A stretch of DNA of 64,000 bases from Duganella sp. 1224 (GTDB lineage: Bacteria > Pseudomonadota > Gammaproteobacteria > Burkholderiales > Burkholderiaceae_D), in the NCBI RefSeq assembly GCF_013408245.1, contig NZ_JACBYS010000008.1, positions 124,001 to 188,000 of the forward strand. The letters run 5' to 3'. A program made the position numbers and the translations under genes. The notes beneath the pieces are model-generated. The model was not told the origin of the DNA and searched no databases. It saw nothing but the letters and a program-made list of their open reading frames with translations. This document shows, piece by piece, positions 2,330 through 56,375 of the stretch; within the stretch, counting starts at the first letter, position 1, and each line of letters begins with the position of its first letter.

Positions 2330-2359
2330 GGGGTCTGACCCCGTACGGGGTCAGACCCC
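2330..2359. repeat. 30-bp palindromic repeat, copy A
   Basis: Perfect self-complementary 30-mer: arm GGGGTCTGACCCC, centre GTAC, then the complementary arm. Each 13-base arm is itself almost palindromic. Flanking CACCCCC upstream and TGCGGGGT downstream form an outer pairing, so the full unit is about 60 bp. It lies between the receptor terminator and the ribosome binding site of DUF969. No T-run follows, so it is not a classical terminator. Confidence 0.9.
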
Positions 2360-2411
2360 TTTCGGCGCATTGCGGGGTAAGATGCGGCGATTCATCCGCC
2401 GAGGAGTTTTT

Positions 2412-3089
2412 ATGGTTAATTTATGGCCGCTGCTGGGCGTGGCCGTCATCATCGCCGGCTTTGCGCTGCGCGCCCATCCCGTCCTGGTGGTGATCGCCGC
2501 CTGTTTCGTCACCGGCTTCGCCGCCGCCATGCCGCTCGACCAGCTGCTGGCCACACTGGGCACGGCCTTCGTCAAGACCCGCAACCTGCCGATGATCCTG
2601 CTGCTGCCGATCGCCGCCATCGGCCTGCTGGAACGGCATGGCTTGAAGGAGCACGCGCAGGCGTCGATCGCCCGCATCAAGTCCGCCACCACCGGCCGCC
2701 TGCTGATCGTCTACCTGGCCATCCGCGAACTGGCGGCTGCCTTCGGCCTGACCAGCATCGGCGGCCATCCGAACATGGTGCGGCCGCTGATCGCGCCGAT
2801 GGCGGAGGGCGCGGCCGAGGTGCGCTATCCGAACGTGACCATGGAGATGCGCTACCGCATCCGCGCCATGGCCGCCGCCACCGACAACGTCGGCCTGTTC
2901 TTCGGCGAGGACGTGTTCGTCGCCTTCGGCGCGATTGTGCTGATGCAGACCATCCTGCGCGGCGAAGGGCTGGAAGTCGATCCGCTGCACATGGCGCTGT
3001 GGGGCATCCCCACCGCCATCTGCGCCTTCATCATCCACGCTTGGCGCCTGTACCGGCTGGACCGCCACCTGGCGCGGAGCGCGGCATGA
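2412..3089 (+). CDS. DUF969 family membrane protein
   Basis: Hydrophobic 225-residue inner-membrane protein with about five or six membrane segments, starting MVNLWPLLGVAVIIAGFAL. The start at 2412 follows GAGGAG at 2401-2406; upstream in-frame starts lack a ribosome binding site. The sequence resembles DUF969, almost always found beside DUF979 and often near pcp or 5-oxoprolinase genes, suggesting that the pair forms a transporter. The stop overlaps the DUF979 start (ATGA), implying translational coupling. The substrate is unknown; pyroglutamate or pyroglutamyl peptides is an inference from the neighbouring pcp only. Confidence 0.85.
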   Translation: MVNLWPLLGVAVIIAGFALRAHPVLVVIAACFVTGFAAAMPLDQLLATLGTAFVKTRNLPMILLLPIAAIGLLERHGLKEHAQASIARIKSATTGRLLIVYLAIRELAAAFGLTSIGGHPNMVRPLIAPMAEGAAEVRYPNVTMEMRYRIRAMAAATDNVGLFFGEDVFVAFGAIVLMQTILRGEGLEVDPLHMALWGIPTAICAFIIHAWRLYRLDRHLARSAA

Positions 3090-4042
3090 TCCTCAAGCTG
3101 GACTACTTCTATTACGTGCTCGGCGCCATGCTGTTGATGGTGGCGTGGATGGCGCTGCGCGACCGCCACAATCCCCGGCGCTACAGCAGCGCCTTGTTCT
3201 GGGCCTTGTATGCGGCGATCTACCTGGCCGGCGACGTGCTGCCGCCGGTGGCGGCTGGCCTGATGATGGTGACGATGGCGCTGATCGCCGGCTTTGGTGG
3301 CGTTACGCTGGGCCGCTACGGCGAGCGCACGCCGGAAGCGCGGCGCGACAGCGCCCGCCGCCTGGGCCACAAGCTGCTGATCCCCGCGCTGCTGATCCCC
3401 ATCACCACGGTGATCGGCTCGACGCTGTTCAAGGACGTCAAGTGGGACGGCCTGTTCCTGCTCGACCCGAAAAACATCACGCTGGTCAGTCTTGGTTGCG
3501 GCTCGCTGTTCGCGGTGGCCACCGCCTGCTGGCTGACGCGCTCCACGCCTTTGCAGGCGATGCGCGAATCGCGCCGGCTGATCGACCACCTGGGCTGGGC
3601 GGTGGTGCTGCCGCACATGCTGGCGGTGCTTGGCCTGCTGTTCACCGATGCCGGCATGGGCAAGGCGGTGGCACACGTGGTCACGTCCTACATCAATATG
3701 GACGTGCGGCTGGTGGCGGTGGCCGTGTACTGCGTCGGCATGGCGCTGTTCACCATCATCATGGGCAATGGCTTCGCGGCGTTTCCGGTGATGGCGGGCG
3801 GCGTCGGCATTCCGGTGCTGGTCGGCGTCTACCACGCCAATCCGGCGGTGATGGCGGCAATCGGCATGTTCAGTGCCTACTGCGGCACCCTGATGACGCC
3901 GATGGCGGCCAATTTCAACATCGTGCCGGCGGCCTTGCTGGAGCTGCCGGACAAAAACGCGGTGGTCAAAATGCAGGTGCCGACCGCGTTGCCACTATTG
4001 TTAGTGAATGTAGCATTGCTTTATTTTTTGATGAATCTGTGA
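3086..4042 (+). CDS. DUF979 family membrane protein
   Basis: 318-residue polytopic membrane protein with about eight to ten hydrophobic segments and a conserved-looking central stretch (IIMGNGFAAFPVMAGGVG), partner of the upstream DUF969 protein. The ATG at 3086 overlaps the preceding stop. Known DUF979 proteins are uncharacterised putative permeases. pcp follows after 41 bases, so the three genes probably form one operon for uptake and processing of a pyroglutamyl compound; that role is inferred from context. Confidence 0.85.
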   Translation: MILKLDYFYYVLGAMLLMVAWMALRDRHNPRRYSSALFWALYAAIYLAGDVLPPVAAGLMMVTMALIAGFGGVTLGRYGERTPEARRDSARRLGHKLLIPALLIPITTVIGSTLFKDVKWDGLFLLDPKNITLVSLGCGSLFAVATACWLTRSTPLQAMRESRRLIDHLGWAVVLPHMLAVLGLLFTDAGMGKAVAHVVTSYINMDVRLVAVAVYCVGMALFTIIMGNGFAAFPVMAGGVGIPVLVGVYHANPAVMAAIGMFSAYCGTLMTPMAANFNIVPAALLELPDKNAVVKMQVPTALPLLLVNVALLYFLMNL

Positions 4043-4083
4043 GAGGCTACCGGGTTAGATAGTGGCGTCACGGAGCAGTCGAG

Positions 4084-4734
4084 ATGAAAAAGATAATATT
4101 GTTAACGGGCTTTGAGCCGTTTAACAAGGAGACCATCAACCCCTCGTGGGAAGCGGTGCGTCAGCTGGACGGCTGGCACGAGGGCGAGTTTGTGGTCCAT
4201 GCGCGGCAGCTGCCGTGCGTGTTCGGGCGCGCGCTGAAGGCGGTACACCAGGCGGTGGAGGAGCTGCAACCGAGTATCGTCATCTCGGTCGGCCAGGCCG
4301 GCGGGCGGGTGGATATTTCGGTGGAGCGCGTCGCCATCAACGTTGACGATGCGCCGTATGCGGATAACCAGCAGCGGCAGCCGGTCGACCAGCCGATCGT
4401 CAACGGCGGCCCGGCGGCGTATTTTTCAACCTTGCCGATCAAGGCGATTGTGCACGAGTTGCGCGAGGCGGGGGTGCCGGCATCGGTATCGCAATCGGCC
4501 GGCACGTTCGTGTGCAACCACGTGTTCTATGGCCTGATGCACCAGGCGCACGAGTGGGGCACGACCATGCGCGCCGGCTTCATTCACATCCCGTATCTGC
4601 CGGAGCAGGCCGCGCGCCATCCCGGCGCCGCCAGCATGAAGCTGGAAGACGTGGTGGAAGGCCTGCGCATCGCCGTGCGCACCACGCTGGCCCACACGGT
4701 CGACCTGCGCGAAGCAGGCGGCCTGACGCATTAA
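4084..4734 (+). CDS. pcp: pyroglutamyl (pyrrolidone-carboxylate) peptidase
   Basis: Cytosolic cysteine peptidase of family C15 that removes N-terminal pyroglutamate from peptides. At 216 residues it has the normal length. The catalytic triad falls at the family positions: Glu81 (SVERVAIN), Cys144 (GTFVCNHVFY) and His168 (FIHIPYLP); the N-terminus LLTGFEPF is also typical. GGAG at 4073-4076 precedes the ATG. It is the last gene of the DUF969-DUF979-pcp group and converges with the LysR gene at 4802. Confidence 0.95.
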   Translation: MKKIILLTGFEPFNKETINPSWEAVRQLDGWHEGEFVVHARQLPCVFGRALKAVHQAVEELQPSIVISVGQAGGRVDISVERVAINVDDAPYADNQQRQPVDQPIVNGGPAAYFSTLPIKAIVHELREAGVPASVSQSAGTFVCNHVFYGLMHQAHEWGTTMRAGFIHIPYLPEQAARHPGAASMKLEDVVEGLRIAVRTTLAHTVDLREAGGLTH

Positions 4735-4780
4735 CCGGACCGGCCAACGCCGCGATCCTGAACCTCAAGGTCAGCAGATC

Positions 4781-4810
4781 GGGGTCTGACCCCGTACGGG
4801 GTCAGACCCC
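4781..4810. repeat. 30-bp palindromic repeat, copy B (overlaps a CDS end)
   Basis: Same perfect palindrome as copy A, between the convergent pcp and LysR genes. Unlike the other copies it reaches into a gene: the LysR stop codon (4802-4804, minus strand) and the preceding Gly-Val codons are repeat sequence. Confidence 0.9.
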
Positions 4811-5710
4811 AGGCTGTGAGGGGTTCAGAATATTCAAAAACGCCCGCACCACCGGCGCATCGTCCTGCGTGGTATAGGTAATATACAGATTCGCCGACGG
4901 CGGATTGGTCCGGATCGGCACAAACACCACCCCCGGCCAGCCGATGCGGCTGGTGGTTTCCGGCATCAGCGCCACGCCCAGTCCCGCGCCCACCATGGCC
5001 AGCAGCGTTTGCGGCTCGGTGGCCTCCTGCGCGATGGTCGGCTGGAAGCCGGCCTGCACGCAGCACTGCATCAGGTAGCGCGGGAACGACGACTTGTCGA
5101 GCGCCAGCGTCAGCATCGGCTCCTGTGCGATGTCGATCAGTTCTATCGCTTCCTGCTTGGCCAGCGGGTGATGTTCGTTGATGGCCACGCACACGTCTTC
5201 GCGGAAGCACAATTCCTGGCGCAGGTTGTCGCTCTTCAGCACATCGTCATCCAGCCGCGGCTCGCGCCAGAAGCCGACGTCCACTTGCTTGGCGCGCAGC
5301 GCTTCGTATTGCAGTGTGGGGCCCATTTCGTGCAGCGTCCACGTCACGCGCGGGAACTTGGTCTGGAATTCTTCCAGCAGGCTGGGGATCGGGCCCCACA
5401 TCGCCGAGCCGACGATGCCGACGCGCAGCCGTCCCACTTCGCCGCGGTCGATCTGGCGGATGGTGTCGATGGTCATGCGCATGCGGGCCAGCAGGTCGGC
5501 CGCTTCGTTCATCAGCGCCTTGCCGGCCACGGTCAGTTCAAACGTGCGCGTGGTGCGGGCGAACAGCTTGACACCCAGTTCGCTCTCCAGCTTCATGATC
5601 TGCTGGCTGAGCGGCGGCTGCGAGATGTGCAGGCGCTCCGCCGCGCGGCTGAAACTTTTTTCTTCGGCGACGGCGAGGAAGTACTTGAGTTGTTTCAGAT
5701 CGATGGACAT
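4802..5710 (-). CDS. LysR-family transcriptional regulator
   Basis: 302-residue regulator with an N-terminal winged helix (LKQLKYFLAVAEEKSFSRAAERLHISQPPLSQQI, here split: helix residues about 3-60) and a C-terminal effector-binding domain (about 90-295). It lies 29 bases downstream of psuG on the same strand and may be co-transcribed with psuK-psuG, though LysR proteins usually act on divergent genes. GAGG precedes the start. Its last codons and TGA stop come from palindromic repeat B, so the C-terminus may have been altered by repeat insertion. The effector is unknown. Confidence 0.92.
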   Translation of the reverse strand: MSIDLKQLKYFLAVAEEKSFSRAAERLHISQPPLSQQIMKLESELGVKLFARTTRTFELTVAGKALMNEAADLLARMRMTIDTIRQIDRGEVGRLRVGIVGSAMWGPIPSLLEEFQTKFPRVTWTLHEMGPTLQYEALRAKQVDVGFWREPRLDDDVLKSDNLRQELCFREDVCVAINEHHPLAKQEAIELIDIAQEPMLTLALDKSSFPRYLMQCCVQAGFQPTIAQEATEPQTLLAMVGAGLGVALMPETTSRIGWPGVVFVPIRTNPPSANLYITYTTQDDAPVVRAFLNILNPSQPGV

Positions 5711-5739
5711 GGCTGGCCTCGAAAGTTAGCCCCTGGTGG

Positions 5740-6651
<912 letters not shown>

Positions 6652-6655
6652 GGTC

Positions 6656-7786
6656 TTATCCTTTACTGGGGAAGAGCGGGGCGCTCAAGTCAAAATCGTG
6701 TATCTCGTCGAGGACGTCGGCGGCCAGCACCGGCGATACCGTCTCCGGGCTTTCCAGTGTCATGGCGGCCACCTTCAGGCCGCGGCGGCAAGCCAGCGTC
6801 AGGTCGCCGCTGCCCTGGTACAGCGACCAGCAGACGGCGGCCGAGAAGGCATCGCCGGCGCCGGTCACGTCCACCACGTCCACCTGGTGCGCAGCCAGCC
6901 AAACCAGCTCGCCGCCGCGCGTGTGGTACACGCCCTGGCCGCCGCAGGTGACGATGACGTCGCGCGCGCCTTGCGCGCACACCTCGTTGCAGGCGGCGCG
7001 CACGTCGGCCTCGGTCGGCAGCGCGCGGCCGACGCGGGTTTCCAGCTCGCCGCGGTTCAGGATCAGCAGGCGCAGGCCGCCCAGGTCCGCCGGCAGCCGG
7101 GCCATCTTCGGCTGCGAGACGGCGATGATCACCAGCGGCACGTTGTCGGTGCGCGCGCTGTCCAGCAGCGCGGTGATGCTGTCGGCGGGCAGGTTCAGAT
7201 CGGCCACGGTCATGGCGGCCGCCGCGCGCTGCGGCAGGCGGCTGGCCAGGAACTCGGGCGTGAGGCGGTCGTACAGCGCCATGTCGGCCAGCGCCACCAC
7301 CAGCTCGCCCTTGTCGTCGAGGATGGCGGTGTAGGTGCCGGTGGCGGCGTCCTGGAGCTTCAGGCTGCCGCGCGTGTCGATGCCGGCCGCCTCGGCGTGG
7401 TCCTGCAGGTTGCGGCCGGCGCCGTCGTCGCCCAAAGCGGTCAGCAGCGCCACCGGCAGATTCAGCCGCGCCAGGTTTTCGGCGATGTTGCGCGCCACGC
7501 CGCCGTACACCTCTTCGGCGGTGGCGGGATTGGAGGTGCCCAGCTGCATGGCCTCGATGGTGCGCAGCTTGCGATCCAGGTTGGCGGCGCCGATGCACAT
7601 CACCGGCCGTTTATCGGGCAGCACGTAGGCGCGGCCGAGCAGGCGGCGTTCGCGGATCAGGCCGGCGATGTGCCCGGCCACGGCGGAGCGTGACAGGCGC
7701 AGCTCCACCGCCAGATCCTGCTGGGAGATGAAGGGGTTGGCGCGGATCAGCTGGTAGAGCTGTTCCTTTTTCGAAGAATCGGTCAT
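6656..7786 (-). CDS. psuK: PfkB-family pseudouridine kinase with N-terminal winged helix
   Basis: Probable pseudouridine kinase making the PsuG substrate. The 376-residue protein has a winged helix-turn-helix (about residues 1-60: [20 protein letters not shown], then [12 protein letters not shown]) followed by a PfkB ribokinase fold with the C-terminal signature [15 protein letters not shown]. coli PsuK is about 313 residues without a helix-turn-helix; this layout resembles E. coli YeiI. The start at 7786 has GGAAG before it; longer in-frame starts lack this. Pairing with psuG supports the substrate. The DNA-binding domain suggests autoregulation, and an inverted repeat covers its promoter. 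Confidence 0.85.
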
Positions 7787-7800
7787 GGGGCTTCCAAACA

Positions 7801-7840
7801 GTTGTTCGCAATCGTAAACATTTGTCTTGATTGCGTCAAC
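7801..7840 (-). promoter_or_regulatory. psuK promoter overlapped by an inverted repeat (candidate operator)
   Basis: On the minus strand TTGACG (7834-7839), a 17-base spacer and TACGAT (7811-7816) form a plausible sigma-70 promoter 25 bases before the psuK ATG. The same bases carry an inverted repeat: GTTGaCGCAATC on one side and GATTGCGaaCAAC on the other, with 7-bp perfect inner arms. A bound regulator would block polymerase. The cognate protein could be the winged helix of PsuK or the LysR at 4802; this is inferred. Confidence 0.6.
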
Positions 7841-7869
7841 GGCGCGCAGCGGCTCGGTTTGTCGTGGTT

Positions 7870-7875
7870 TATAAT
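7870..7875 (+). promoter_or_regulatory. -10 element for the nucleoside phosphorylase gene
   Basis: A consensus TATAAT stands in an AT-rich stretch (7866-7960) of the 206-base divergent region, about 118 bases before the phosphorylase start. No good -35 is visible, which fits an activator-dependent promoter. An AT-rich inverted repeat (ATTTATA, 9 bases, TATAAAT; 7883-7905) follows in the presumed leader. Confidence 0.45.
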
Positions 7876-7992
7876 ACTCCTCATTTATATCATCTTTATA
7901 TAAATAGCTAAGAAAAATGGTATTTGCCATACATATGCACGATGATGCATAGTGTCAGCTTCCCCAGCCATATCAAAAATTCGAGGATTTCC

Positions 7993-8832
7993 ATGTCTAA
8001 TAACTTCCCATTCCAGGCAGCCGACATCATTCGCGCCCGTCTCCCACAAGGTTTCAAGCCGCGCGTGGCGATGATCCTCGGTTCCGGCCTGGGCGTGCTG
8101 GCGGAACAAATGACCGACGCGGTCACCATCGGCTACGATGAACTGCCGGGCTTCCCGATCTCCACCGTGCACGGCCACGCCGGCGAGCTGGTGATCGGCA
8201 CGCTGTCAGGCGTGCAGGTGGTGTGCATGAAGGGTCGCGGCCACGTCTACGAAGGCTACGGCCTGGGCGTGATGACCAGCGCCGTGCGCACCATGAAGCT
8301 GCTGGGCTGCGAAATGCTGTTCGTGACCAACGCCGCCGGTTCGCTGCGCACCGAGGTGGACGCCGGTTCGCTGGTGGCGCTGACCGACCATATCAACTTC
8401 CTGCCGGGCACGCCGATGATCGGCGCCAACGACGAGCGCTTCGGCCCGCGCTTCTTCAGCATGGCCAACGCCTACGACGCCGAGCTGCGCGCGCTGCTGC
8501 ATGCCTCGGCCAAGGAGAAGAACGTGACGCTGCATGAAGGCGTGTACATCGCCTACGCCGGTCCTAACTTTGAAACGCCTGCGGAAATCCGCGCGTTCAA
8601 GACGCTGGGCGCGGACGTGGTGGGCATGTCGGTGGTGCCGGAAGTGGTGTCGGCCCGTCATTGCGGCCTGAAGGTGGTGGGCGTGTCGGCGATTACCAAT
8701 CTGGCGGAAGGGCTGTCGCCGTTCCCGCTGTCGCATGAGCAGACCTTGAAATACGCGGCGGTGGCGGCGACCTCGCTGGTGGAAGTGATTCTGGGCTTCC
8801 TGGGCAACGTGGCCAAGACGCCGCAAGCGTAA
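7993..8832 (+). CDS. purine-nucleoside phosphorylase (trimeric, PunA/XapA type)
   Basis: Phosphorolysis of purine (deoxy)nucleosides to free base and (deoxy)ribose 1-phosphate in the cytosol. The 279-residue protein shows the PNP family II motifs MILGSGLGVLAE (phosphate site), GRGHVYEGY, VTNAAGSL, YAGPNFETPAEIR and the base-pocket region GVSAITNLAEG. The start at 7993 follows GAGGA (7983-7987); a longer in-frame start at 7924 has no ribosome binding site. It heads a same-strand run with deoB and deoC, which process the deoxyribose 1-phosphate it releases. Whether it prefers xanthosine or guanosine/inosine cannot be read from the sequence. Confidence 0.93.
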   Translation: MSNNFPFQAADIIRARLPQGFKPRVAMILGSGLGVLAEQMTDAVTIGYDELPGFPISTVHGHAGELVIGTLSGVQVVCMKGRGHVYEGYGLGVMTSAVRTMKLLGCEMLFVTNAAGSLRTEVDAGSLVALTDHINFLPGTPMIGANDERFGPRFFSMANAYDAELRALLHASAKEKNVTLHEGVYIAYAGPNFETPAEIRAFKTLGADVVGMSVVPEVVSARHCGLKVVGVSAITNLAEGLSPFPLSHEQTLKYAAVAATSLVEVILGFLGNVAKTPQA

Positions 8833-8844
8833 CCCGGGTGAGGC

Positions 8845-8874
8845 GGGGTCAGACCCCGTACGGGGTCTGACCCC
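8845..8874. repeat. 30-bp palindromic repeat, copy C
   Basis: Variant with the central A and T of the arms exchanged (arm GGGGTCAGACCCC first), still a perfect palindrome. It is followed by the conserved flank GCCGCAGTGCGGGGT and lies between the phosphorylase and deoB, 61 bases before the deoB start. Confidence 0.9.
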
Positions 8875-8935
8875 AGTGTGCCGCAGTGCGGGGTTGCAGT
8901 GGCAAGTCCGCACTTTTGCTTTTTAGGAGTACATC

Positions 8936-11079: not shown

Positions 11080-11093
11080 CAACGGACACCGTC

Positions 11094-13481: not shown

Positions 13482-13499
13482 ACAGCACCCCAAACGGAT

Positions 13500-13528
13500 G
13501 GGGTCTGCCCCCTCCGGGGTCAGACCCC
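13500..13528. repeat. palindromic repeat, degenerate copy D
   Basis: A 29-base version with changes in the first arm and the centre (GGGGTCTGCCCCC then TCC instead of a perfect arm plus GTAC); the second arm and the flank GCCGCAGTGCGGGGT are intact. It lies 18 bases after the aldehyde dehydrogenase stop, before deoA. Confidence 0.85.
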
Positions 13529-13605
13529 GGCGCCGCCGCAGTGCGGGGTTCGCGGGTGCCGCGAGCTCCACTGCGGCGTTATCAATTTAGTGTACGGAGA
13601 ATGTC

Positions 13606-14928: not shown

Positions 14929-14935
14929 CCACGTC

Positions 14936-15060
14936 GTCCCGGCGCAAGCCGGGACCCATGGTGAGTTCGCGAATCCGCAACCTGGCCATGGATTCCGGCT
15001 TTCTCCGGAATGACGGTAATTTTGCCGGTATGACGGTAATGTTTCGCCGCGATGACGGCA
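14936..15060. repeat. intergenic cluster of short inverted and direct repeats
   Basis: The deoA-cdd gap holds three elements: a hairpin GTCCCGGC-GCAA-GCCGGGAC (14936-14955); a second hairpin ATTCCGG-6-CCGGAAT (14992-15011); and three copies of ATGACGGYA starting at 15010, 15030 and 15052 (20-22 base period). The hairpins resemble REP-like repeats scattered in many beta- and gammaproteobacteria. No T-run follows them. Confidence 0.7.
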
Positions 15061-15075
15061 TCGAGGATAACTTAG

Positions 15076-17125
<2,050 letters not shown>

Positions 17126-24524: not shown

Positions 24525-24549
24525 GAGGCGCGGCCAACCCCCAACCGCT

Positions 24550-24579
24550 GGGGTCTGACCCCGTACGGGGTCAGACCCC
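24550..24579. repeat. 30-bp palindromic repeat, copy E
   Basis: Perfect palindrome, same orientation as copies A and B, with upstream AACCCCC and downstream GCCGCAGTGCGG flanks. It lies between bauA and ald, 64 bases before the ald start. Confidence 0.9.
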
Positions 24580-24642
24580 TGTTCGCCGCAGTGCGGATTG
24601 GAACTGTGCCGCACACGAACGTAAAACCGAAAGGAGACAACC

Positions 24643-28660: not shown

Positions 28661-29949
28661 TGGCTGACCTGAGCATAGAATTCTGCGGCATCAAGTCCAT
28701 CAATCCGTTCTGGCTGGCCTCCGCGCCGCCGACGGACAAGGCCTACAACGTGGTGCGCGCATTTGAAGCGGGATGGGGCGGCGTGGTATGGAAGACGCTC
28801 GGCGAGGATCCCGCCGCCGTCAACGTATCGTCGCGCTACTCGGCGCATTACGGCAAGAACCGCGAGGTACTGGGCTTTAACAACATCGAGCTGATTACCG
28901 ATCGTTCGCTGGAGCTGAACCTGCAGGAAATCACGCAGGTGAAGAAGGACTGGCCGGACCGCGTGATCATCGTGTCGCTGATGCTGCCGTGCGAGGAGCG
29001 TCTGTGGGCCGACATCATGCCGAAGGTGGAAGCGACTGGCGCTGACGGTATCGAGCTGAATTTCGGCTGCCCGCATGGCATGCCTGAACGCGGCATGGGC
29101 GCCGCGGTCGGCCAGGTGCCGGAGTATGTGGAGATGGTCACGCGCTGGTGCAAGCAGAATACCAGGCTGCCGGTGATCGTCAAGCTGACGCCGAACATTA
29201 CCGATGTGCGCGCGCCGGCGCGGGCGGCCAAGGCGGGTGGGGCGGATGCGGTATCGCTGATCAACACGATCAACTCGATCACGCATCTGGACCTCGATCA
29301 GATGGTGGCGTTTCCGATCGTCGGCGGCGCCAGTACGCATGGCGGTTACTGCGGCTCGGCGGTGAAGCCGATTGCCTTGAACATGGTGGCTGAAATCGCG
29401 CGCGATCCGCAGACGGCAGACCTGCCGATTTCCGGTATCGGCGGCATCGGCAACTGGCGCGACGCGGCCGAGTTCATCGCGCTGGGCGCGGGCTGTGTGC
29501 AGGTGTGCACGGCGGCGATGCTGCATGGCTTCCGCATCGTTGAAGAAATGAAGGATGGCTTGTCGCGCTGGATGGATCAGAAGGGCTACAAGAACATCGC
29601 CGAGTTCTCGGGCAAGGCGGTGCCGAACACCACCGACTGGAAATACCTCAACATGAATTACAAGGTGATCGCGCAGATCAACCAGGAGGATTGCATCAAG
29701 TGCGGCCGTTGTTACGTGGCGTGCGAGGATACGTCGCACCAGTCGATCAATCAGCTGATCGACGCGGCCACCGGGGCGCGCACGTATGAGGTGAACAAGG
29801 AGGAGTGCGTTGGGTGTAATCTGTGCGAGATCACCTGTCCGGTGCAGGGTTGCATCACGATGGTGCCGCAGGATACCGGCAAGCCGTACATGAACTGGAC
29901 GCAGGACCCACGCAATCCCCGCGCTGAAAGGGTCGCGGAGACAGCGTGA
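28660..29949 (+). CDS. preA: NAD-dependent dihydropyrimidine dehydrogenase, PreA subunit
   Basis: Catalytic FMN subunit reducing uracil and thymine to the 5,6-dihydro forms. 429 residues: dihydroorotate-dehydrogenase-like barrel (1-330) with active-site Cys in NFGCPHGMPERGMG, then two [4Fe-4S] motifs, CIKCGRCYVACEDTSHQ and CVGCNLCEITCPVQGC. This is the first committed step of the reductive pathway whose later enzymes flank it. Confidence 0.96.
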   Translation: MADLSIEFCGIKSINPFWLASAPPTDKAYNVVRAFEAGWGGVVWKTLGEDPAAVNVSSRYSAHYGKNREVLGFNNIELITDRSLELNLQEITQVKKDWPDRVIIVSLMLPCEERLWADIMPKVEATGADGIELNFGCPHGMPERGMGAAVGQVPEYVEMVTRWCKQNTRLPVIVKLTPNITDVRAPARAAKAGGADAVSLINTINSITHLDLDQMVAFPIVGGASTHGGYCGSAVKPIALNMVAEIARDPQTADLPISGIGGIGNWRDAAEFIALGAGCVQVCTAAMLHGFRIVEEMKDGLSRWMDQKGYKNIAEFSGKAVPNTTDWKYLNMNYKVIAQINQEDCIKCGRCYVACEDTSHQSINQLIDAATGARTYEVNKEECVGCNLCEITCPVQGCITMVPQDTGKPYMNWTQDPRNPRAERVAETA

Positions 29950-29979
29950 TTGAGCGCCAGCGCCAACCCCCGGCCAGAT

Positions 29980-30009
29980 GGGGTCAGACCCCGTACGGGG
30001 TCTGACCCC
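29980..30009. repeat. 30-bp palindromic repeat, copy F
   Basis: Perfect palindrome in the orientation of copies C and G, with AACCCCC upstream and GCCGCCGTGCGGGGT downstream, between preA and the permease gene, 88 bases before the latter's GTG start. Confidence 0.9.
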
Positions 30010-30096
30010 GGTATGCCGCCGTGCGGGGTGAAAGCAAGCGTCAAGGTACGAAAATTGCAATGGTGGAGCAGACATCAACCCTTTGGAGAACGCCTC

Positions 30097-32974
<2,878 letters not shown>

Positions 32975-32984
32975 GGAGCATGTC

Positions 32985-40959: not shown

Positions 40960-40960
40960 G

Positions 40961-45709: not shown

Positions 45710-45792
45710 CTTGGCGGGGAGAGTGAGGGCTTGTGTGAAACTGCGTAAGCTTCAGCTAACGGGCAGCCTCTGACAGCGGATTTTGTTACGTT

Positions 45793-47606: not shown

Positions 47607-47626
47607 CCCGGCGAATCAGGCGGCCA

Positions 47627-47956: not shown

Positions 47957-48052
47957 CGTTCCGGGGTTGAAGTATCGTTGGTGTTATTCATGATAAAACA
48001 ATTCCGAATGGGAATACTCTTCAATTATCACAGCGGAGGACGTTAAATCCTG

Positions 48053-48964: not shown

Positions 48965-49058
48965 GGAATTTATTTCTATTAAGGGATGGAAGAATCATCC
49001 AACACGAGAATTTTTGTCGTGGTTATCATGGCGGCCATTTGTTACCAGGTCAAGCCGC

Positions 49059-50189
49059 ATGTTTACTTCTATTCTTCTGGCGGTCGCCGCGTTTGTGATT
49101 GTGACGACCGAATTTCTGATTGTCGGCCTGCTGCCGGCCTTGGCGCGTGATTTGCACCTCGCGGTGGCGACCACCGGCCAACTGGTGACGCTGTTCGCGG
49201 TGGTGGTGATGTTGTGCGGCCCGTTCCTGACGGCGTGGCTGGCCAATGTCGAGCGCAAGCGGCTGTTCGTGGCGATTCTGCTGGTGTTCGCCGCGTCGAA
49301 TGCGCTGGCGGCGCTGGCGCCAAATGGCTGGGTGCTGGCGCTGGCACGCCTGTTGCCGGCGCTGGCGTTGCCGGTGTTTTGGGGCACGGCGAGCGAGACG
49401 GCCGCGCAGATCGCCGCGCCGGGGCAGGACGGACGCGCGGTGTCGCGGGTCTATCTGGGAATCTCCGGCGCGATGCTGTTTGGCATTCCGCTCGGTACGC
49501 TGGCCTCGGATGCGATCGGCTGGCGCGGCGCTTTCGGGCTGCTGGCCGTGCTGTCGCTGCTGATTGCGGTGTTGTTGGCGGCGTACATGCCGTCAGTGCG
49601 CGCGCATCATCCGGTGCGCATGGCGGATCAGGCGCGGATATTGAAAAGCCGCTTCTTCCTGGCCAATGTCGCGCTGTCGGTGCTGGTGTTTACCGCGATG
49701 TTCACCGGCTACACCTATCTGGCGGAGATGCTGGAGAAATCGGCCGGCGTTCCGCCGGCGCTGGTCGGCTGGTGGCTGATGGGCTTTGGCGCGGTGGGCT
49801 TGCTGGGTAACTGGCTGGGCGGCTTGTGGGCTGGCCAGCGGCCGCTGGCCACGACGGCGGCGTTCTGCCTGGTGCTGGCGGCAGGCATGGCGGCGAGCAT
49901 GGCTTTGGCCGGTCGCGGCGCCTGGTTTGTGCTGGCGCTGGCGGTATGGGGCATCGCGAATACGGCGCTGTATCCGGTCTGCCAGATCCGCGTGATGCAG
50001 GCCGCGACGCAGGCCCAGGCGTTGGCCGGCACCATGAATGTGTCGGCCGCCAACGGCGGTATCGCGCTGGGCGCGCTGATCGGCGGCATCAGTATTTCGG
50101 CCTTGGGCGTGGCGAATATCGGTTACGTGTCTGGCGTAATGGCCTTGCTGGCGGTGCTGGTGGTGGCGTTGATCCGGCGTCCGGCTTAG
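49059..50189 (+). CDS. MFS transporter (AraJ/SotB-like efflux family)
   Basis: 376-residue inner-membrane protein with about 12 hydrophobic helices; VTTEFLIVGLLPALARDLHL at the N-terminus and the loop motif after helix 2 (WLANVERKRL) fit the drug/sugar efflux branch. The start at 49059 is taken because it begins the first membrane helix; the frame extends upstream into the divergent LysR gene. Substrate unknown. Confidence 0.9.
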   Translation: MFTSILLAVAAFVIVTTEFLIVGLLPALARDLHLAVATTGQLVTLFAVVVMLCGPFLTAWLANVERKRLFVAILLVFAASNALAALAPNGWVLALARLLPALALPVFWGTASETAAQIAAPGQDGRAVSRVYLGISGAMLFGIPLGTLASDAIGWRGAFGLLAVLSLLIAVLLAAYMPSVRAHHPVRMADQARILKSRFFLANVALSVLVFTAMFTGYTYLAEMLEKSAGVPPALVGWWLMGFGAVGLLGNWLGGLWAGQRPLATTAAFCLVLAAGMAASMALAGRGAWFVLALAVWGIANTALYPVCQIRVMQAATQAQALAGTMNVSAANGGIALGALIGGISISALGVANIGYVSGVMALLAVLVVALIRRPA

Positions 50190-50195
50190 CCCAGG

Positions 50196-51110
50196 TCACA
50201 TTTCTCCGGGCTGCATGGCGGCGGCGATCTGGCCGCGCAGCCAGCTGTTGGCCGGGTCGTTGTCGACGCTGGCGTGCCAGTACAGGTAGACGTCCAGCGC
50301 CGGCAGGTCCAGCGGCACCGGCAAAATCTGGTTGTTGAACTGCCGGTTGACGATGCGCGCCAGGCGGTCGGGCATGGTCAGCGCCAGGTCGGTCTGGCTG
50401 ACCACGCGGCAGGCGGCGAAGTAGTGCTGGCAGCGCAGGCGGATGCGGCGTTGCAGGCCTTGGCGGCTGAGCTCGACATCTTCGAGGCCGGGGCCGCGCC
50501 GGCGCGAGCTGGTCTGGATGTGTTCCAGCGCCAGATATGTCTCCAGCGTCAGCTTGCCGCGCTTGATCAGCGGATGGCCGCGCCGCACCAGCACCACGGT
50601 CTGGTCGCGCGCCAGTTGCGCGCGCCGCACCTCGGTGGGCAGCGGCAGCAGGATGTCGATGGCGGCGTCCAGTGTGCCGGCGGCCAGCTCGCCGGCCAGT
50701 TCCTTGCGGCTCACTTGCAGCGTGTTGAGCGTGGCCGATGGCGCGGCGGCGGCGATGCCGGTCATTAGCGGCGGCAGCACGCTGGCTTCCAGCACGTCGC
50801 GCACGGCCAGCGAGAAACTGCGCTCGCTGCTGGCGGCGTCGAAACGGGCGGCGCCGGTCAACGTCACCTCGAAGCCGCGCAGCGCGCGGCGCACCGGTTC
50901 GATGATGGAGCGCGTCAGCGGCGTTGGCGTCATCACGTGGCCCTGGCGCTCGAACAGGGGATCGTCGAATAGCTGGCGCAGGCGGTTCAGCGCGTGGCTG
51001 ATGGCCGGCTGCGTCAGGTGCATTTTCTGGCTGGCGCGCGTGATGCTGCCTTCGGCGTAGATGGCTTCCAGCACGGTGAACAGGTTGAGGTCGACCTTGG
51101 ATAGATGCAT
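50196..51110 (-). CDS. LysR-family regulator (NodD/LeuO-like)
   Basis: 304-residue LysR protein starting with the NodD-like pattern VDLNLFTVLEAIYAEGSITRA and the recognition helix LTQPAISHALNRLRQLF. It converges with the MFS gene (6 bases apart) and is divergent from the phosphatase/acyl-CoA dehydrogenase pair at 51195, its most likely target. Confidence 0.93.
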   Translation of the reverse strand: MHLSKVDLNLFTVLEAIYAEGSITRASQKMHLTQPAISHALNRLRQLFDDPLFERQGHVMTPTPLTRSIIEPVRRALRGFEVTLTGAARFDAASSERSFSLAVRDVLEASVLPPLMTGIAAAAPSATLNTLQVSRKELAGELAAGTLDAAIDILLPLPTEVRRAQLARDQTVVLVRRGHPLIKRGKLTLETYLALEHIQTSSRRRGPGLEDVELSRQGLQRRIRLRCQHYFAACRVVSQTDLALTMPDRLARIVNRQFNNQILPVPLDLPALDVYLYWHASVDNDPANSWLRGQIAAAMQPGEM

Positions 51111-51194
51111 GGGATTTATCGGTGAGCATTAATTCTATTCATTTGATGAATTATAGGCCGGCCGGTAAGCTACAGGTCTTACGCGGGAGGCGAT

Positions 51195-51899
51195 ATGGGA
51201 CAAATTTTTCTGGTGCGCCATGGGCAGGCCTCGTTCGGCAAGGCGAATTACGACCAGTTGTCGGAACTGGGCTTCGAGCAGGCGCGCCTGCTGGGCCAGT
51301 GGTATGCCAATACGCGGCAGTCGTTCCACAAGGTGATCAACGGCGGCATGGCGCGCCACCGGCAGACGGCGGACGCCTGCATGGGCGCGCTGCCGAAGAA
51401 GTTGCTGATTGAAACCGAGTGGATCACCGACGAGGACTTCGCCGAGTTCGACCATCACCAGGTGCTGCTGCGCCATTGCCCCGAATTCGCCGACGCGGTG
51501 GCGTTCAAGGCGCTGCTGGCCAGCCATGGCGATCCGCCGCGCGCGCTGGAGCAGTTGTTCCGCGCCGCCATGCAGCGCTGGATGGGCGGCTGGCACGACG
51601 GCGATTACACCGAAACCTGGCCAGACTTCCGCCGCCGCTGCGTGCGCGCACTGGAACGGCTCGACACCGACAGCAGCAAGCAGACCACCATCGTGTTCAC
51701 TTCCGGCGGCGTGATCGCGGCGCTGATGCAGCATCTGCTGGGCCTGCAGGATTTCCAGGTGATGGAGCTGAACTGGACGCTGGCCAACTGCGCCGTCACC
51801 AAGCTGATGCACCGTCCCGGCCAGTTCACGCTGAGCTATCTGAATAATTACGCGCACCTGGAATGGCTGGGCCAACCGGGCGCGGTGACCTACCGATAA
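51195..51899 (+). CDS. histidine-phosphatase-fold protein lacking the second His
   Basis: 234 residues, phosphoglycerate-mutase-like fold with the phosphohistidine motif [10 protein letters not shown] (His9). The second catalytic motif, normally SHGG, reads [11 protein letters not shown], so that His is absent; a subfamily with this TSGG form exists, and its activity is uncertain. The next gene begins 10 bases on and encodes an ACAD10/11-type enzyme, suggesting a joint pathway. Confidence 0.85.
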
Positions 51900-51909
51900 G
51901 GGAGACAAG

Positions 51910-53124
<1,215 letters not shown>

Positions 53125-53206
53125 TTATCTTAAAAGCAAGGTAATCGTTTTCCGTCGGTCTATTACTGAACTGTTGTTTGGCGGTCCCACAGGTGTCGAC
53201 TTCGTG

Positions 53207-53235
53207 TTGACATCTCAAGAGGGCTGCATTAATCT
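53207..53235 (+). promoter_or_regulatory. promoter of the second TonB receptor gene
   Basis: A perfect -35 TTGACA (53207-53212), a 17-base spacer and a weak -10 TAATCT (53230-53235) stand 53 bases before the receptor start in the 163-base gap. Confidence 0.5.
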
Positions 53236-53287
53236 TTGTCGTCACGCAAGTTAAACGATTAACTAAAACTACAAGCAGGAGACGACG

Positions 53288-55789
53288 ATGAAAAAGACCA
53301 TCCCCCTGACGCCGATGGCGTCGGCCATGGCGCTGGCCTTGCTGGCCATGAACGCCCAGGCGCAACAGGAAGAATCCACCACCAAACCCGGCACCCTGGA
53401 GACGGTGGTGGTGACCGCCAATAAACGCGTCGAAAAATTGGAAAGCGTTCCAATGGCGATTTCGGTGATGAGCGAGCAGGAAATCCAGCGCACCAATATC
53501 CGCGAAATCGAGGACGTGGTGGCGCAGATGCCGTCGCTGACGCTGAACTCGGGCACCACCGCCGCCAACAACGCCATCTTCATGCGCGGCATCGGCACCG
53601 TGTCGGTCGGCATCGGCGTCGAGTCGGACGTGGCGGTGATCATCGACGACATTCCGATCGCCACCCAGTTCCAGGCATTTAAAGACCTGGCCGACGTGTC
53701 GCGCATCGAGGTGCTGAAGGGCCCGCAGAGCACGCTGTTCGGCAAGTCGGCCGTGGCCGGCGCCGTCAACATCGTCACCAAGCCGATCTCCGGCCCGATG
53801 GTGTACCGCGCCAGCACCTACCTGACCAACGACAACGAGTGGCGCGTCAACGCCTCGGCCGGCGGCCAGCTGGACGAGCACTTCGCGCTGCGCCTGTATG
53901 CCGGCAAGAGCCGCCTGCCGGGTACCTTCCACAACCTGACCGACGGCAAGGACGTCAACGGCTCGGGCGGCAAGACCTTCATGGCCAAGCTGCAGTGGAA
54001 TCCGCTGGACAACGTGCAGGTCGACCTGTCGCCGCGCTACAACTACCAGGAAAACTCGCGCGGCGTCACCGCCGTCAACGGCTTTGTGCTGCGCACCGGG
54101 TCGGCGGCCGCCGGCAATGTGGTGTCGACGCCGATCGGCCTGGATGGCGTGTACCTGAACGGCAATCCGCTGCTGCCGGCCACCTCGGTGCTGGCCGGCA
54201 TCAACGTCAACGATCCGAACAACCGCAACGTGCGCCGCGATTTCCCGACCGGCCTGATCTCCAGCGACCGCGGCGTCGGCCTCAAGGTGGCGTGGACGCT
54301 GCCGAACGACGCCACGCTGATGTCGATCACCTCGTGGAGCAAATACCTGGCCAACGACTTCCGCGACCAGGACTTCACCGACGTGCCGACCATCGCCGTT
54401 GCCGGCTCGACCATTCCGACCGTGGGCAACAACCAGTTCGGCACCTACGACATCCGCTCGAAGACGCAGGAAATCCGCTACGTGTCGCCGGACACCGGCA
54501 ACTTCAAGTACGTGGCCGGCCTGTGGGCGGCGCACAACGAGATCTACCGCCACTTCATCCGCGGCTACTGCGTGGCGCCGACGGTCTGCAGCGGCAACTC
54601 GCCGTCCAGCCCGACCAACTATTACACCGATATCTACAACACCAACAAGGCGGTGTTCGGCCAGGCGTCGTGGGAATTCATTCCAAGCTGGACGCTGACC
54701 GGCGGCCTGCGCTTCAACGAGGAAATCTCGGGCTACCACTACAAGCGCAACTACTACACCAACCAGCTGACCGAGGCCTCGTTCGTGCCGGGTCCGGTGG
54801 GCGTCGACCAGTTCCAGAGCACCGGCAACACCGACCGCGCCACCACCGGCAAGCTGAGCCTGCAGAAGCAGATCACGCCGGACTGGATGGTCTACACCCA
54901 GGTGTCGACCGGCTACAAGGGTGAGGCGTATGACGTGACCTCGGGCCTGAAGGCATCGGCGGCGTTCCCGGTCAAGCCGGAAACCAGCCAGAGCTTCGAG
55001 CTGGGCACCAAGGCCAACCTGTTCGACAACCGCATGTCGGTGGCAGCCACCTATTTCAACTCGGACTTCTTCGGCTACCAGCAGAACGTCACCTACGTGC
55101 TGCCCAACGACCCGACCATCTACAGCCAGCTGAATTCGATTCCGCACATCGCCACCCACGGCTTTGAACTGGACGTGAACGCGCTGGCGGCCAAGGACCT
55201 GACGGTGAACGCGGCGCTGGCCTTCACGCTGCCGACCATCGAGAAATGGGCCAACGGTCCGTGCTACAGCGACCCGACCAATGTGGCGGTGAATGGCACC
55301 AAGTACGCGGCCAACGGCTCGATCGCCGGCCAGAACACGGCCTGCTTCCCGATCACGCCGGGTTCGACCACCGGCGTGCAGAACCTGGACAACTCGGTGT
55401 TCCCGGGCACGCCGAAGATCAAGCTGAACCTGCGCGCCAGCTACGACTTCGCGATTCCCAAGCTGCCGCTGCGGGGTTTTGCCGACGTCAGCGTGCGTTA
55501 CCAGAGCGATTACAACACCAACATCAACAACGACCCGAACGCCAAGAACGATCCGTACGCGATCACCGATCTGGGCTTTGGCGTACGCGATCCGAAGGAC
55601 AAGTACAAGCTGAGCTTCCGCATCAACAATCTGTTCGACCGCTTCTATATTCCGAACGCCAATGCCAGCGGCCCGTCGTCATTCCGCGCCGGACCTACGC
55701 CGACCTCGCCGCAGGTTTCGGCCAGCAGCTGGGTGCCGCCGCGCGACGTGTTCCGCTACTTCAGCGTCAAGCTGGATGTGAAGTTCTAA
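53288..55789 (+). CDS. TonB-dependent receptor
   Basis: 833-residue outer-membrane receptor. Signal peptide residues 1-25 (ALLAMNAQAQ), TonB box LETVVVTANKR (about 36-46), plug (IRDVE-like VSRIEVLKGPQSTLFGKSAV) and a 22-strand-type barrel ending SVKLDVKF. AGGAG before the ATG. No inner-membrane transporter is adjacent, so the ligand cannot be told. It is similar in layout to, but clearly different in sequence from, the receptor at the window start. Confidence 0.95.
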   Translation: MKKTIPLTPMASAMALALLAMNAQAQQEESTTKPGTLETVVVTANKRVEKLESVPMAISVMSEQEIQRTNIREIEDVVAQMPSLTLNSGTTAANNAIFMRGIGTVSVGIGVESDVAVIIDDIPIATQFQAFKDLADVSRIEVLKGPQSTLFGKSAVAGAVNIVTKPISGPMVYRASTYLTNDNEWRVNASAGGQLDEHFALRLYAGKSRLPGTFHNLTDGKDVNGSGGKTFMAKLQWNPLDNVQVDLSPRYNYQENSRGVTAVNGFVLRTGSAAAGNVVSTPIGLDGVYLNGNPLLPATSVLAGINVNDPNNRNVRRDFPTGLISSDRGVGLKVAWTLPNDATLMSITSWSKYLANDFRDQDFTDVPTIAVAGSTIPTVGNNQFGTYDIRSKTQEIRYVSPDTGNFKYVAGLWAAHNEIYRHFIRGYCVAPTVCSGNSPSSPTNYYTDIYNTNKAVFGQASWEFIPSWTLTGGLRFNEEISGYHYKRNYYTNQLTEASFVPGPVGVDQFQSTGNTDRATTGKLSLQKQITPDWMVYTQVSTGYKGEAYDVTSGLKASAAFPVKPETSQSFELGTKANLFDNRMSVAATYFNSDFFGYQQNVTYVLPNDPTIYSQLNSIPHIATHGFELDVNALAAKDLTVNAALAFTLPTIEKWANGPCYSDPTNVAVNGTKYAANGSIAGQNTACFPITPGSTTGVQNLDNSVFPGTPKIKLNLRASYDFAIPKLPLRGFADVSVRYQSDYNTNINNDPNAKNDPYAITDLGFGVRDPKDKYKLSFRINNLFDRFYIPNANASGPSSFRAGPTPTSPQVSASSWVPPRDVFRYFSVKLDVKF

Positions 55790-55902
55790 GCGTGTTATGC
55801 GCTGCGTGAATCTCTGGCATCAGAAAGATAAATTGGCTTAATAGGTCGGCGGCGGGCATGATTACACCTGTCTCCTCTATTCTCCTCCAAGGAAATAGAT
55901 TT

Positions 55903-55931
55903 AGCCCGCTCTCTGCAGCGGGCTTTTTTTT
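55903..55931 (+). terminator. Rho-independent terminator after the TonB receptor
   Basis: Stem AGCCCGCT / AGCGGGCT (8 bp), 6-base loop, then a run of eight T residues, 113 bases after the receptor stop. Confidence 0.88.
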
Positions 55932-55937
55932 ATCGGT

Positions 55938-55968
55938 ACAAATGTCACGTGCAGAAAGTGACGTTTGT
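55938..55968. promoter_or_regulatory. inverted repeat upstream of the Flp pilin (candidate operator)
   Basis: Two 11-base arms, ACAAATGTCAC and GTGACGTTTGT, pair at 10 of 11 positions around a 9-base spacer. A -10-like TAGAAT follows at 55995-56000, so the repeat lies around the -35 to -60 region of a possible pilin promoter. Protein unknown. Confidence 0.5.
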
Positions 55969-56031
55969 CGGCTGTGCGGCGGCGTGGCGGTGCGTAGAAT
56001 GCATTACATCAGCAGTGCAGCACAGCAGGAC

Positions 56032-56054
56032 CTAAAACCCGAACCCCGTTTTAG
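56032..56054 (+). promoter_or_regulatory. hairpin in the presumed pilin mRNA leader
   Basis: CTAAAAC and GTTTTAG (7 of 7 paired) enclose a 9-base loop, 45 bases before the pilin start. No T-run; it may stabilise the mRNA. Confidence 0.4.
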
Positions 56055-56098
56055 TTGACGCAGTAGCCCCTTCAATCAACTTTAACGAGGATTCAATC

Positions 56099-56266
56099 AT
56101 GAACGCAATCAAGAACTTCATCCGCAACGAAGACGGCATCACCGCCATCGAATACGCCCTGATGGCTGCCGCCATCGCCGCCGCGATCACCGCCGGCCTG
56201 GCCATCCTGGGTCCGAAACTGACCGCTTCGCTGACCTACATCTCGGGCCTGATCAAATCGTCGTAA
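56099..56266 (+). CDS. flp: Flp-family type IVb pilin
   Basis: 55-residue pilin: short basic leader, prepilin-peptidase site in NEDGITAIEYALM (cleavage after Gly, with Glu and Tyr at +5 and +6), then a hydrophobic helix rich in Ala and Ile. ACGAGG (56085-56090) precedes the ATG. Its own terminator follows, so it is a single-gene unit. No tad/cpa assembly genes are in the window, so the assembly machinery must lie elsewhere. Strongly expressed by look: clear leader, terminator and few rare codons (inference). Confidence 0.92.
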   Translation: MNAIKNFIRNEDGITAIEYALMAAAIAAAITAGLAILGPKLTASLTYISGLIKSS

Positions 56267-56280
56267 TCAGTCAGCGCCCC

Positions 56281-56312
56281 AAAAAATCCGGCCCCGCGCC
56301 GGATTTTTTTTT
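56281..56312 (+). terminator. Rho-independent terminator after flp
   Basis: Stem ATCCGGC / GCCGGAT extended by A-T pairs, 5-base loop, then a run of nine T residues; the A-run on the other side makes it potentially bidirectional. Confidence 0.9.
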
Positions 56313-56345
56313 GCCCGAGTGAGTGTTGCCCGGCACCCCAGTCGT

Positions 56346-56375
56346 GGGGTCAGACCCCGTACGGGGTCTGACCCC
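56346..56375. repeat. 30-bp palindromic repeat, copy G
   Basis: Perfect palindrome in the orientation of C and F, flanked by GCACCCC upstream and GCCGCCGTGCGGGG downstream, between the flp terminator and the polB promoter. Confidence 0.9.

Follow-up and report, generated by a model that had tools for sequence, protein, structure and literature searches.

The stretch of DNA analysed here (64 kb, hereafter the window) contains 15 matches to the 13-nt sequence GGGGTCWGACCCC at up to 2 mismatches, compared with a mean of 1.44 and a maximum of 6 in shuffled sequence, where 15 was reached in 0 of 100 shuffles. Fourteen of these matches form pairs, at 2330, 4781, 8845, 13500, 24550, 29980 and 56346, and bear out the initial annotation of six perfect 30-nt palindromes plus one decayed copy, each perfect core consisting of two near-palindromic 13-mers around GTAC. 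Both of the A/T sub-types that it described were found, with the swap compensated without exception in the six window cores, and the outer ACCC(C)/GCGGGGT pair ascribed to most copies was seen at six of the seven, in degenerate form at 24550 and 56346. The six perfect copies compare with about 2 per 64 kb predicted by the genome mean.

The first REPIN-like copy (2317..2378, plus strand) has an outer ACCCC, a core at 2330-2359 of the T/A sub-type and an outer TTGCGGGGT, and comes after a hairpin and T-run downstream of the preceding gene. The second (4781..4825, minus strand; core 4781-4810) has an outer tag, GAGGGGTT, on one side only. It lies between convergent ORFs and covers the last 9 nt, including the stop codon, of the minus-strand ORF 4802-5710, so that the description of the family as confined to gaps holds strictly for the other six copies only. 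These are all on the plus strand: a copy at 8832..8894 with an outer ACCC, a core at 8845-8874 (A/T sub-type) and an outer GTGCGGGGT; the decayed copy at 13487..13549, whose core (13500-13528) has GGGGTCTGCCCCC as one arm and a 3-nt centre; an insertion of about 107 nt at 24525..24631, its ends approximate to a few nt, with a T/A core at 24550-24579; a copy with approximate ends at 29947..30043, with an A/T core at 29980-30009 and its left end at the stop codon of the preceding gene; and a copy at 56317..56394 with an A/T core at 56346-56375, which comes after a hairpin and T-run that are themselves 3' of a short upstream gene. Six of the seven do precede a start codon in the same direction, at 61-109 nt as measured with the starts at 30098 and 56485 picked by eye. 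Rfam at gathering thresholds gave nothing at the palindrome copies and a tRNA search found none; the sole Rfam match was a toxic sRNA at 55869-55931.

Across the genome of this soil bacterium the family reaches high copy number: when up to 3 mismatches are allowed it counts 196 copies, and the reversed pattern 0. Perfect palindromes made up 61 of 77 sampled cores, a figure that includes 17 fetched as perfect matches (44/60 among the rest), and arm changes over the 77 cores were compensated in 27 cases and non-complementary in 9, of 1001 cells. Folded as DNA the core forms a 13-bp stem (-15.6 kcal/mol, z -5.7). Doublets outnumber singlets by 52 to 7 in 1.17 Mb, one of the features by which REPINs are recognised. 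In contig C2, 36 of 39 copies are extragenic, compared with 8% of positions; 18 of these 36 are in convergent gaps (17.7% expected) and 2 in divergent gaps (38% expected). Sampled copies thus cluster at the 3' ends of genes and keep away from divergent promoters, and the earlier stress on start codons is misleading: because the bias in contig C2 is toward gene 3' ends, the distance to start codons seems to be a by-product. As the initial annotation had noted, no T-run follows the copies (75/77 sampled copies lack one at up to 14 nt from the core), and an intrinsic terminator, that is a hairpin followed by a T-run, was rejected on this ground. TGAG was present 24-38 nt left of the core in 21/77 copies against 2% expected; no target rule is claimed, since TGAG is part of the insert at 29980 and occurs in several of the empty sites at 24550.

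The genome carries a single-copy gene for a RAYT-family Y1/HUH transposase, for which a search had been proposed, at G000:C2:135403-136050 on the minus strand, and a palindrome core is situated 24 nt downstream of its stop codon. The product passes the curated cut-off of PF01797 (45 bits vs 23) and scores 66 bits with the NCBIfam model NF047646 (REP_Tyr_transpos), where the cut-off of 80 is not reached; all 15 rows of a RAYT alignment (A1) match NF047646 below E 0.001. In fold, the RAYT model was closest among PDB entries to 4er8, TnpAREP bound to a REP hairpin (E 1.3e-5), and against PDB the RAYT profile matched ISDra2 TnpA (E 1.4e-5) and 4er8 (E 0.025); the single sequence gave no match in PDB, and PHROGs had no match for this RAYT. 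It contains the motifs NHVH, YIE(M/L)NP and WSSYR, and has W followed by D at a position where D, E or Q occur across the alignment. Judged from its sequence, the protein seems largely to fit subclass 2.1/group 1, for which PMC3733652 reports GGGGWSAS inverted repeats. The other four Y1 genes of the same genome were considered as mobilisers and rejected: L018, L021 and L022 have no core within about 1.5 kb on each side, and although a core lies 90 nt ahead of the start of a second RAYT, L019, a counterpart of that gene (L141; 177 of 233-234 residues identical) is present in genome G042, which holds zero copies.

A close orthologue of the RAYT was present in 9 of 72 genomes, which hold 12-177 copies of the palindrome, while the 63 genomes without one hold 0-12, with the single exception of G034 (92 copies, best RAYT 52% identical); for RAYT versus copy number over the 72 genomes the Mann-Whitney p is 1e-8. 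Among 14 genomes searched later, the three with an orthologue hold 33, 59 and 12 copies, some repeat matches in these three being known beforehand and only the RAYT side unseen; the other eleven gave ten 0s and one 1. The core is located 20-24 nt past the RAYT stop codon in L112-L115 and L312-L314, a 2-mismatch core is found 3' of the RAYT at L119, and L116 has none. Some Y1 gene was present in 58 of 58 genomes examined, so that information comes from the close orthologue alone. The count in relatives that the initial annotation had called for shows a patchy presence across the genus: absence, which it regarded as speaking against such an element, is seen in 40 of 60 same-genus genomes, but as patchiness following the RAYT. 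Of 398 further genomes sampled from the order, 2 contained copies. A tree-based test with three independent pairs gave p 0.25, most pairings having all pairs in the expected direction and none the opposite, and a 34-genome tree implies about four RAYT gains or losses. As the RAYT is at one collinear place across genomes, common descent accounts for some of the correlation between RAYT and copies.

The sequence of the arms also varies with the enzyme. Diverged RAYTs have other nested palindromes nearby, and these variants are abundant when counted in their own genomes. A GGGGTCGTACCC-type variant read from the RAYT flank was subsequently counted 96 times in G015 and 112 times in G023, and a GGGGT(CA/AC)GACCCG-type, taken as one combined pattern from RAYT flanks, 47 times in G058, 152 in G032, 75 in G038 and 76 in G019. 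Variants that were not predicted from RAYT flanks occur in G043 (19), G028 (37), G020 (24), G012 (22) and G035 (8), and among wider RAYT loci the flank rule found no nested palindrome in 72/80. Copies are present on both sides of the RAYT at L114, L117, L121, L126, L133, L136 and L139. Across the genus there are three or more arm types, their populations ranging from tens of copies to about 180, and these flanks and counts indicate that the arm variant follows the RAYT lineage.

Orthologous gaps could be compared at 2330, 8845, 13500, 24550 and 29980, and each of these five sites is occupied in certain Duganella species and unoccupied in others, a contrast that the initial annotation had suggested looking for. 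The core at 2330 is missing in 12 of 12 relatives with a readable gap (8 of 20 unreadable), and that at 8845 in 34 of 34 (29 and 5 in two comparisons), G015 and G023 carrying a doublet of a different type in the same gap. A core-like insertion is also present at 13500 in 4 of 20 relatives. Among 20 relatives the 24550 copy is common to G060, G023 has a doublet of its own and 18 are without a doublet; at 29980 the core is present in 7 of 20 (some imperfect), lost in 2 and the gap empty in 11. From these alignments the palindrome unit is judged to be inserted as a block. This pattern bears on whether the hairpin is primarily a structured RNA, acting as a 3'-UTR stabiliser, an attenuator or a bidirectional terminator and kept for that role in transcripts, as the strength of the stem, the compensated arm changes and the proximity to gene 3' ends might suggest. 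A vertically conserved RNA would not give such presence and absence, and at four of the five gaps the majority of close relatives lack the core, as do 11/20 at the fifth; together with the scarcity of T-runs, the lack of an Rfam match at the copies and the fact that copy number and arm sequence both track the RAYT, this leaves a structured RNA, the other primary nature that the initial annotation had offered, unsupported and very improbable. Single sites may nonetheless have a secondary RNA effect. It is slightly less probable still that the unit is a MITE moved by some unrelated transposase of the DDE type, the link with the RAYT being coincidental: the clear insertion, the terminal inverted tags and the short non-coding unit are MITE-like, but RAYT presence and the variant in the RAYT flank predict most populations, and no target-site duplication was recognised at the compared insertion sites, where boundaries are too unsharp to exclude one. 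Least likely of all is a site for a nucleoid, gyrase, partition or regulatory protein kept chromosome-wide by selection, since the palindromic, abundant and mostly intergenic motif has zero copies in two thirds of the same-genus genomes (40/60) and copies in 2/398 others of the order, has arms that differ between species, and belongs to a unit exceeding the usual size of a binding site and inserted as a block.

The palindromes are thus very probably the cores of non-autonomous REPIN-like elements that the single-copy RAYT most likely copies and mobilises, and the proposal of a REP/MITE-type element was right: copy number, patchiness, filled and empty gaps and a RAYT with a 3' copy all agree. 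Such an element of about 50-107 nt would comprise two inverted 13-nt REP-like hairpins with a 4-nt centre and an outer ACCC(C)...(TGC)GGGGT pair. We infer that the hairpin, in single-stranded form, is bound by the RAYT, which would then cut near the outer tag using an HVH metal site and the tyrosine conserved in RYIE(L/M)NP, and insert a copy of the element elsewhere. Selection would clear copies from genes and promoters, and on loss of the RAYT the remaining copies would decay. Transposition is the presumed process here, and the dependence of mobility on the RAYT appears as a correlation among genomes. More broadly we lean towards the view that subclass 2.1/group 1 RAYTs actively mobilise a REPIN class of their own with an outer ACCC...GGGT tag and not GTAG, in which each lineage would read its own arms, arms and enzyme would evolve in step, and the population would end once its enzyme was lost. 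The genus offers a natural panel for RAYT-REPIN specificity and for the fate of a REPIN population after RAYT loss. Literature searches on the 13-mer or its shorter forms gave none on such repeats among the matches listed; those combining Oxalobacteraceae with 'repetitive extragenic palindromic' gave nothing on point, and those combining Duganella with RAYT terms none on Duganella, again among the matches listed, and RAYT/REPIN with four taxon names returned no RAYT or REPIN among the best 10 of 727 matches.

With the REPINs and RAYTs described in the available text of PMC3116915 the element shares two REP-like palindromes in inverted orientation that fold into a hairpin, a high copy number, an extragenic location, a majority of doublets, its non-autonomous nature and a repeat in the flank of the cognate RAYT gene. 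It differs in having no GT[AG]G head and in hairpins that are usually 4 nt apart, and its RAYT looks as though it belongs outside the groups associated with classic REPINs. A GT[AG]G head was found within 6 nt of the hairpin foot at 0/308 arm sites (background 2.35% per site), and because of this absence the element is not a canonical REP; this suggests that GTAG-keyed searches can miss whole REP populations. In the portion of PMC2817692 dealing with canonical GTAG REPs the RAYT is flanked by two inverted REPs, whereas the RAYT of the window genome has the 3' copy only, its orthologue at L114 having copies on both sides. The CGTC-tagged REPs in the excerpts of PMC3733652 are likewise short extragenic palindromic dimers, and some of the relatives compared here have similar repeats in the same gaps, but the CGTC-tagged REPs differ in sequence and tag and are a separate family. 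The same excerpts describe TIRYT genes and TIRtrons, which carry GGGGWSAS inverted repeats beside a Y1 transposase gene and form moderately abundant TIR families, some of them double palindromic. Here the arm GGGGTCAG, present in one arm of every intact core and on the opposite strand in the other, fits GGGGWSAS and the repeat adjoins a Y1 transposase gene; however, the Duganella element has about 200 copies, mostly doublets, and only a 3' copy at the window-genome RAYT, and within those excerpts and our data a species-by-species match of RAYT lineage and arm type is reported for the Duganella element only. The closest likeness of the enzyme itself is with TnpAY1 subclass 2.1 (RAYT group 1), the second largest subclass, for which the available sections of PMC6006769 list REPs as 'no' after both automatic and manual searches for REP-like sequence. 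NHVH, YIE(L/M)NP, the WSS serine pair and a prevalence that includes beta-proteobacteria are common to both, while that paper gives E or Q after W, where the window-genome RAYT has D, and the Duganella RAYT has a REPIN population linked to it. The REPIN/RAYT kind is known and, as far as those sections go, what is new is a REPIN population linked to a RAYT that seems to belong to a group listed as being without REPs.

All seven nested palindromes proposed for the window (core starts 2330, 4781, 8845, 13500, 24550, 29980 and 56346) were recovered as doublets, with 15 arm matches against a shuffle mean of 1.44, and as described six of the cores are perfect 30-nt palindromes and one, at 13500, is decayed. 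Six copies lie 61-109 nt ahead of a start codon in the same direction, within the 50-110 nt claimed for six of the seven. Confinement to gaps between genes holds for six copies but not for that at 4781, which lies where two ORFs converge and runs into the end of one. Window positions 55869-55931 (+) match the Rfam Betaproteobacteria toxic small RNA (RF02278; 62.3 bits, gathering threshold 50). A short, apparently pilin-like gene follows about 170 nt downstream, its start (MNAIKNFIRNEDG) read by eye. The window corresponds to 124001-188000 of contig C8. Counting the core over the full 6.11-Mb genome, a check suggested in the initial annotation, gave 196 matches when up to 3 mismatches were allowed, while a reversed control pattern in the same search matched nowhere.

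Element anatomy was drawn from 77 copies: contig C2 supplied 39, C8 and the window 6 each, C3 and C4 stretches picked for holding copies 9, and perfect-match loci 17. Their consensus is ACCCC, about 8 nt, the core, about 7 nt and GCCGNNGTGCGGGGT. Left ACCC and right GGGT occur together in 62/77, a figure biased upwards by orienting copies to favour the tags. Of 1001 arm cells, 992 are paired (shuffled mean 945, maximum 959), 27 cells carrying an alternative complementary pair and 9 being non-complementary. The two A/T sub-types account for 46 and 12 sampled copies and a further core form, AGGGTC...GACCCT, for 9 exact ones. The core is predicted to fold as DNA into a 13-bp stem at -15.6 kcal/mol, compared with -3.4 kcal/mol for a single 13-mer, and a GT[AG]G head was found at 0/308 arm sites when searched up to 6 nt 5' of each. 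TGAG also occurs in 21/77 copies (2% expected) at a distance of 24-38 nt to the left of the core, narrowing to 25-29 nt in 20 of these; in the 24550 copy the TGA of this motif is the stop codon of the upstream gene.

Placement was assessed over the whole of contig C2 using a home-made gene caller (777 genes, 90% coding). Extragenic positions hold 36 of its 39 copies, against 8% of 30-mer positions, and 3/39 fell in called coding sequence. Convergent gaps contain 18 of these 36 (17.7% expected), divergent gaps 2 (38% expected) and co-directional gaps 16, with both deviations at p of about 1e-5; the copies therefore prefer the 3' ends of genes and shun promoters, a placement described for REPs by Di Nocera et al. 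(PMC3733652).

Comparison of orthologous gaps, likewise suggested at the outset, was run at 2330, 8845, 13500, 24550 and 29980 and showed each site to be filled in some genomes and empty in others. At 8845 the window core is present in 0/34 relatives. In 25 of them the gap spans 48-56 nt and contains a GC hairpin and a T-run, another 7 have longer gaps lacking the element, and in G015 and G023 the place is taken by a doublet of a different type. The 2330 core is missing in 12/12 readable relatives (8 of 20 were unreadable), and a core-like insertion at 13500 is common to 4/20. The insert at 24550 is about 107 nt long; among 20 relatives it recurs, its arms altered, in G060, while G023 carries a doublet of its own and the other 18 have none, 14 of these with an intergenic spacing of just 10-25 nt. 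The G023 doublet in this gap (L291) has the window's arms (GGGGTCTGACCCC-AA-GGGGTCAGACCCC), that genome's own population being of the GGGGTCGTACCC type. At 29980 the core is found in 7/20 relatives (imperfect in G013 and G031), with flank remnants only in 2 and an empty site in 11; orthologous copies differ in A/T sub-type and in their centre (GTAC, ATGC, GTGC, GCAT) while arm pairing is kept, at 13/13 in six copies including the window's. Several relatives without the element carry palindromic repeats bearing a CGTC tag (for example CGTCATTCC...GGAATGACG) in the 8845, 13500 and 24550 gaps; a half-copy lies in the window at 14992-15015 (-) and one unit 3' of the L019 RAYT gene. CGTC REPs are, according to PMC3733652, not associated with transposase genes.

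A RAYT-type transposase gene, the partner that had been anticipated, encodes 216 aa at C2:135403-136050 (-), and a core lies 24 nt beyond its stop codon. Y1 transposase genes number five in this genome, this one included, and at least one in every one of 58 genomes. In a first set of 58 genomes, those with a RAYT orthologue at 72% identity or more are the source genome, G056, G008, G013, G040 and G037 (the last two matching without the N-terminus), which hold 177, 22, 58, 93, 25 and 27 copies; G007 has only a RAYT fragment (residues 70-148) and 1 copy. In a second set of 14 other genomes of the genus, blind on the RAYT side only as repeat matches in its three carriers had been seen beforehand, those carriers (73-76% identity) hold 33, 59 and 12 copies, and the eleven non-carriers (best RAYT at most 55%) hold 0 in ten and 1 in one. 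Over the 72 genomes, leaving out the incomplete G006 and G057 (0 copies) from the RAYT comparison, 9 carriers have 12-177 copies and 63 non-carriers 0-12, with the exception of G034, whose 92 copies without a close RAYT are possibly an orphan REPIN population or reflect an assembly gap. A two-gene tree of 34 genomes shows about 4 RAYT changes; 3 independent pairs on well-supported branches went in the expected direction or were equal, none opposite, a number too small for significance. Since the RAYT locus is collinear among carriers, wholly or in large part, inheritance was probably mainly vertical, with losses.

Arm variants follow the RAYT lineage. Where the RAYT is 48-61% identical, other nested palindromes lie near the gene: L117 and L118 show GGGGTCGTACCC types, L123, L127 and L129 show GGGGTCAGACCCG types and L126 shows GGGGTACGACCCG, all read from the RAYT flanks before genome counts were made. 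Across the 58 genomes the GGGGTCGTACCC type numbers 96 in G015, 112 in G023, 19 in G043, 1 in each of four genomes and zero in 51. A single joint pattern for GGGGTCAGACCCG/GGGGTACGACCCG gave 47 in G058, 152 in G032, 75 in G038, 76 in G019 (of either form), 37 in G028, 24 in G020, 22 in G012, 8 in G035, 1 in G059 and zero in 49/58; G028 was unpredicted, yet split RAYT pieces immediately precede one of its copies. Among 398 other genomes from the order, the window 30-mer at up to 2 mismatches occurs in G363 (22) and G340 (4), both from distant genera of other families, and in 0 of the remaining 396. Applied to the best 80 RAYT loci among the matches listed (named genomes, some flanks short), the flank rule yielded 8 with nested palindromes, of which four are in Duganella or Pseudoduganella, three in Janthinobacterium and one in Alcaligenaceae, so the RAYT link is demonstrated within this group only and not across the subclass. 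Longer palindromes of about 48-62 nt, e.g. GGTGTCGGACAC and AGGGACGGACCCT types, flank other Duganella RAYTs, at L131, L133 and L136, suggesting further REPIN classes.

In the proposed mechanism, the RAYT would bind the hairpins as single-stranded DNA, cleave near the ACCC/GGGT tags and copy the element, and copies would decay once the RAYT is lost. The protein scores 45 bits against PF01797 (cut-off 23) and 66 against NF047646, under the cut-off of 80, and its AlphaFold model (pLDDT 79.5, 15-row alignment) best matches 4er8, TnpAREP bound to a REP hairpin. H60 and H62 (NHVH) and Y120 (RYIE(L/M)NP) are invariant in the alignment and are the predicted catalytic residues, such His and Tyr residues being catalytic in HUH enzymes. 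The introduction of PMC8266576 backs this role. Compared with subclass 2.1 in Table 1 of PMC6006769, NHVH, YIELNP and SS fit, whereas the residue after W, here D, disagrees. That table's REP entry for 2.1 is 'no', and the paper states that automatic and manual searches alike turned up no REP-like sequences for subclasses 2.1 and 2.3. TIRs with GGGGWSAS adjoin such genes, some TIR families being moderately abundant (Di Nocera et al. 2013, PMC3733652), and PMC6006769 places 20/26 of the Di Nocera genes in subclass 2.1; the association of RAYT and repeat thus has precedent, to which, as far as the consulted parts of the cited papers show, the present family adds a high-copy doublet population and its matching to RAYT lineage.
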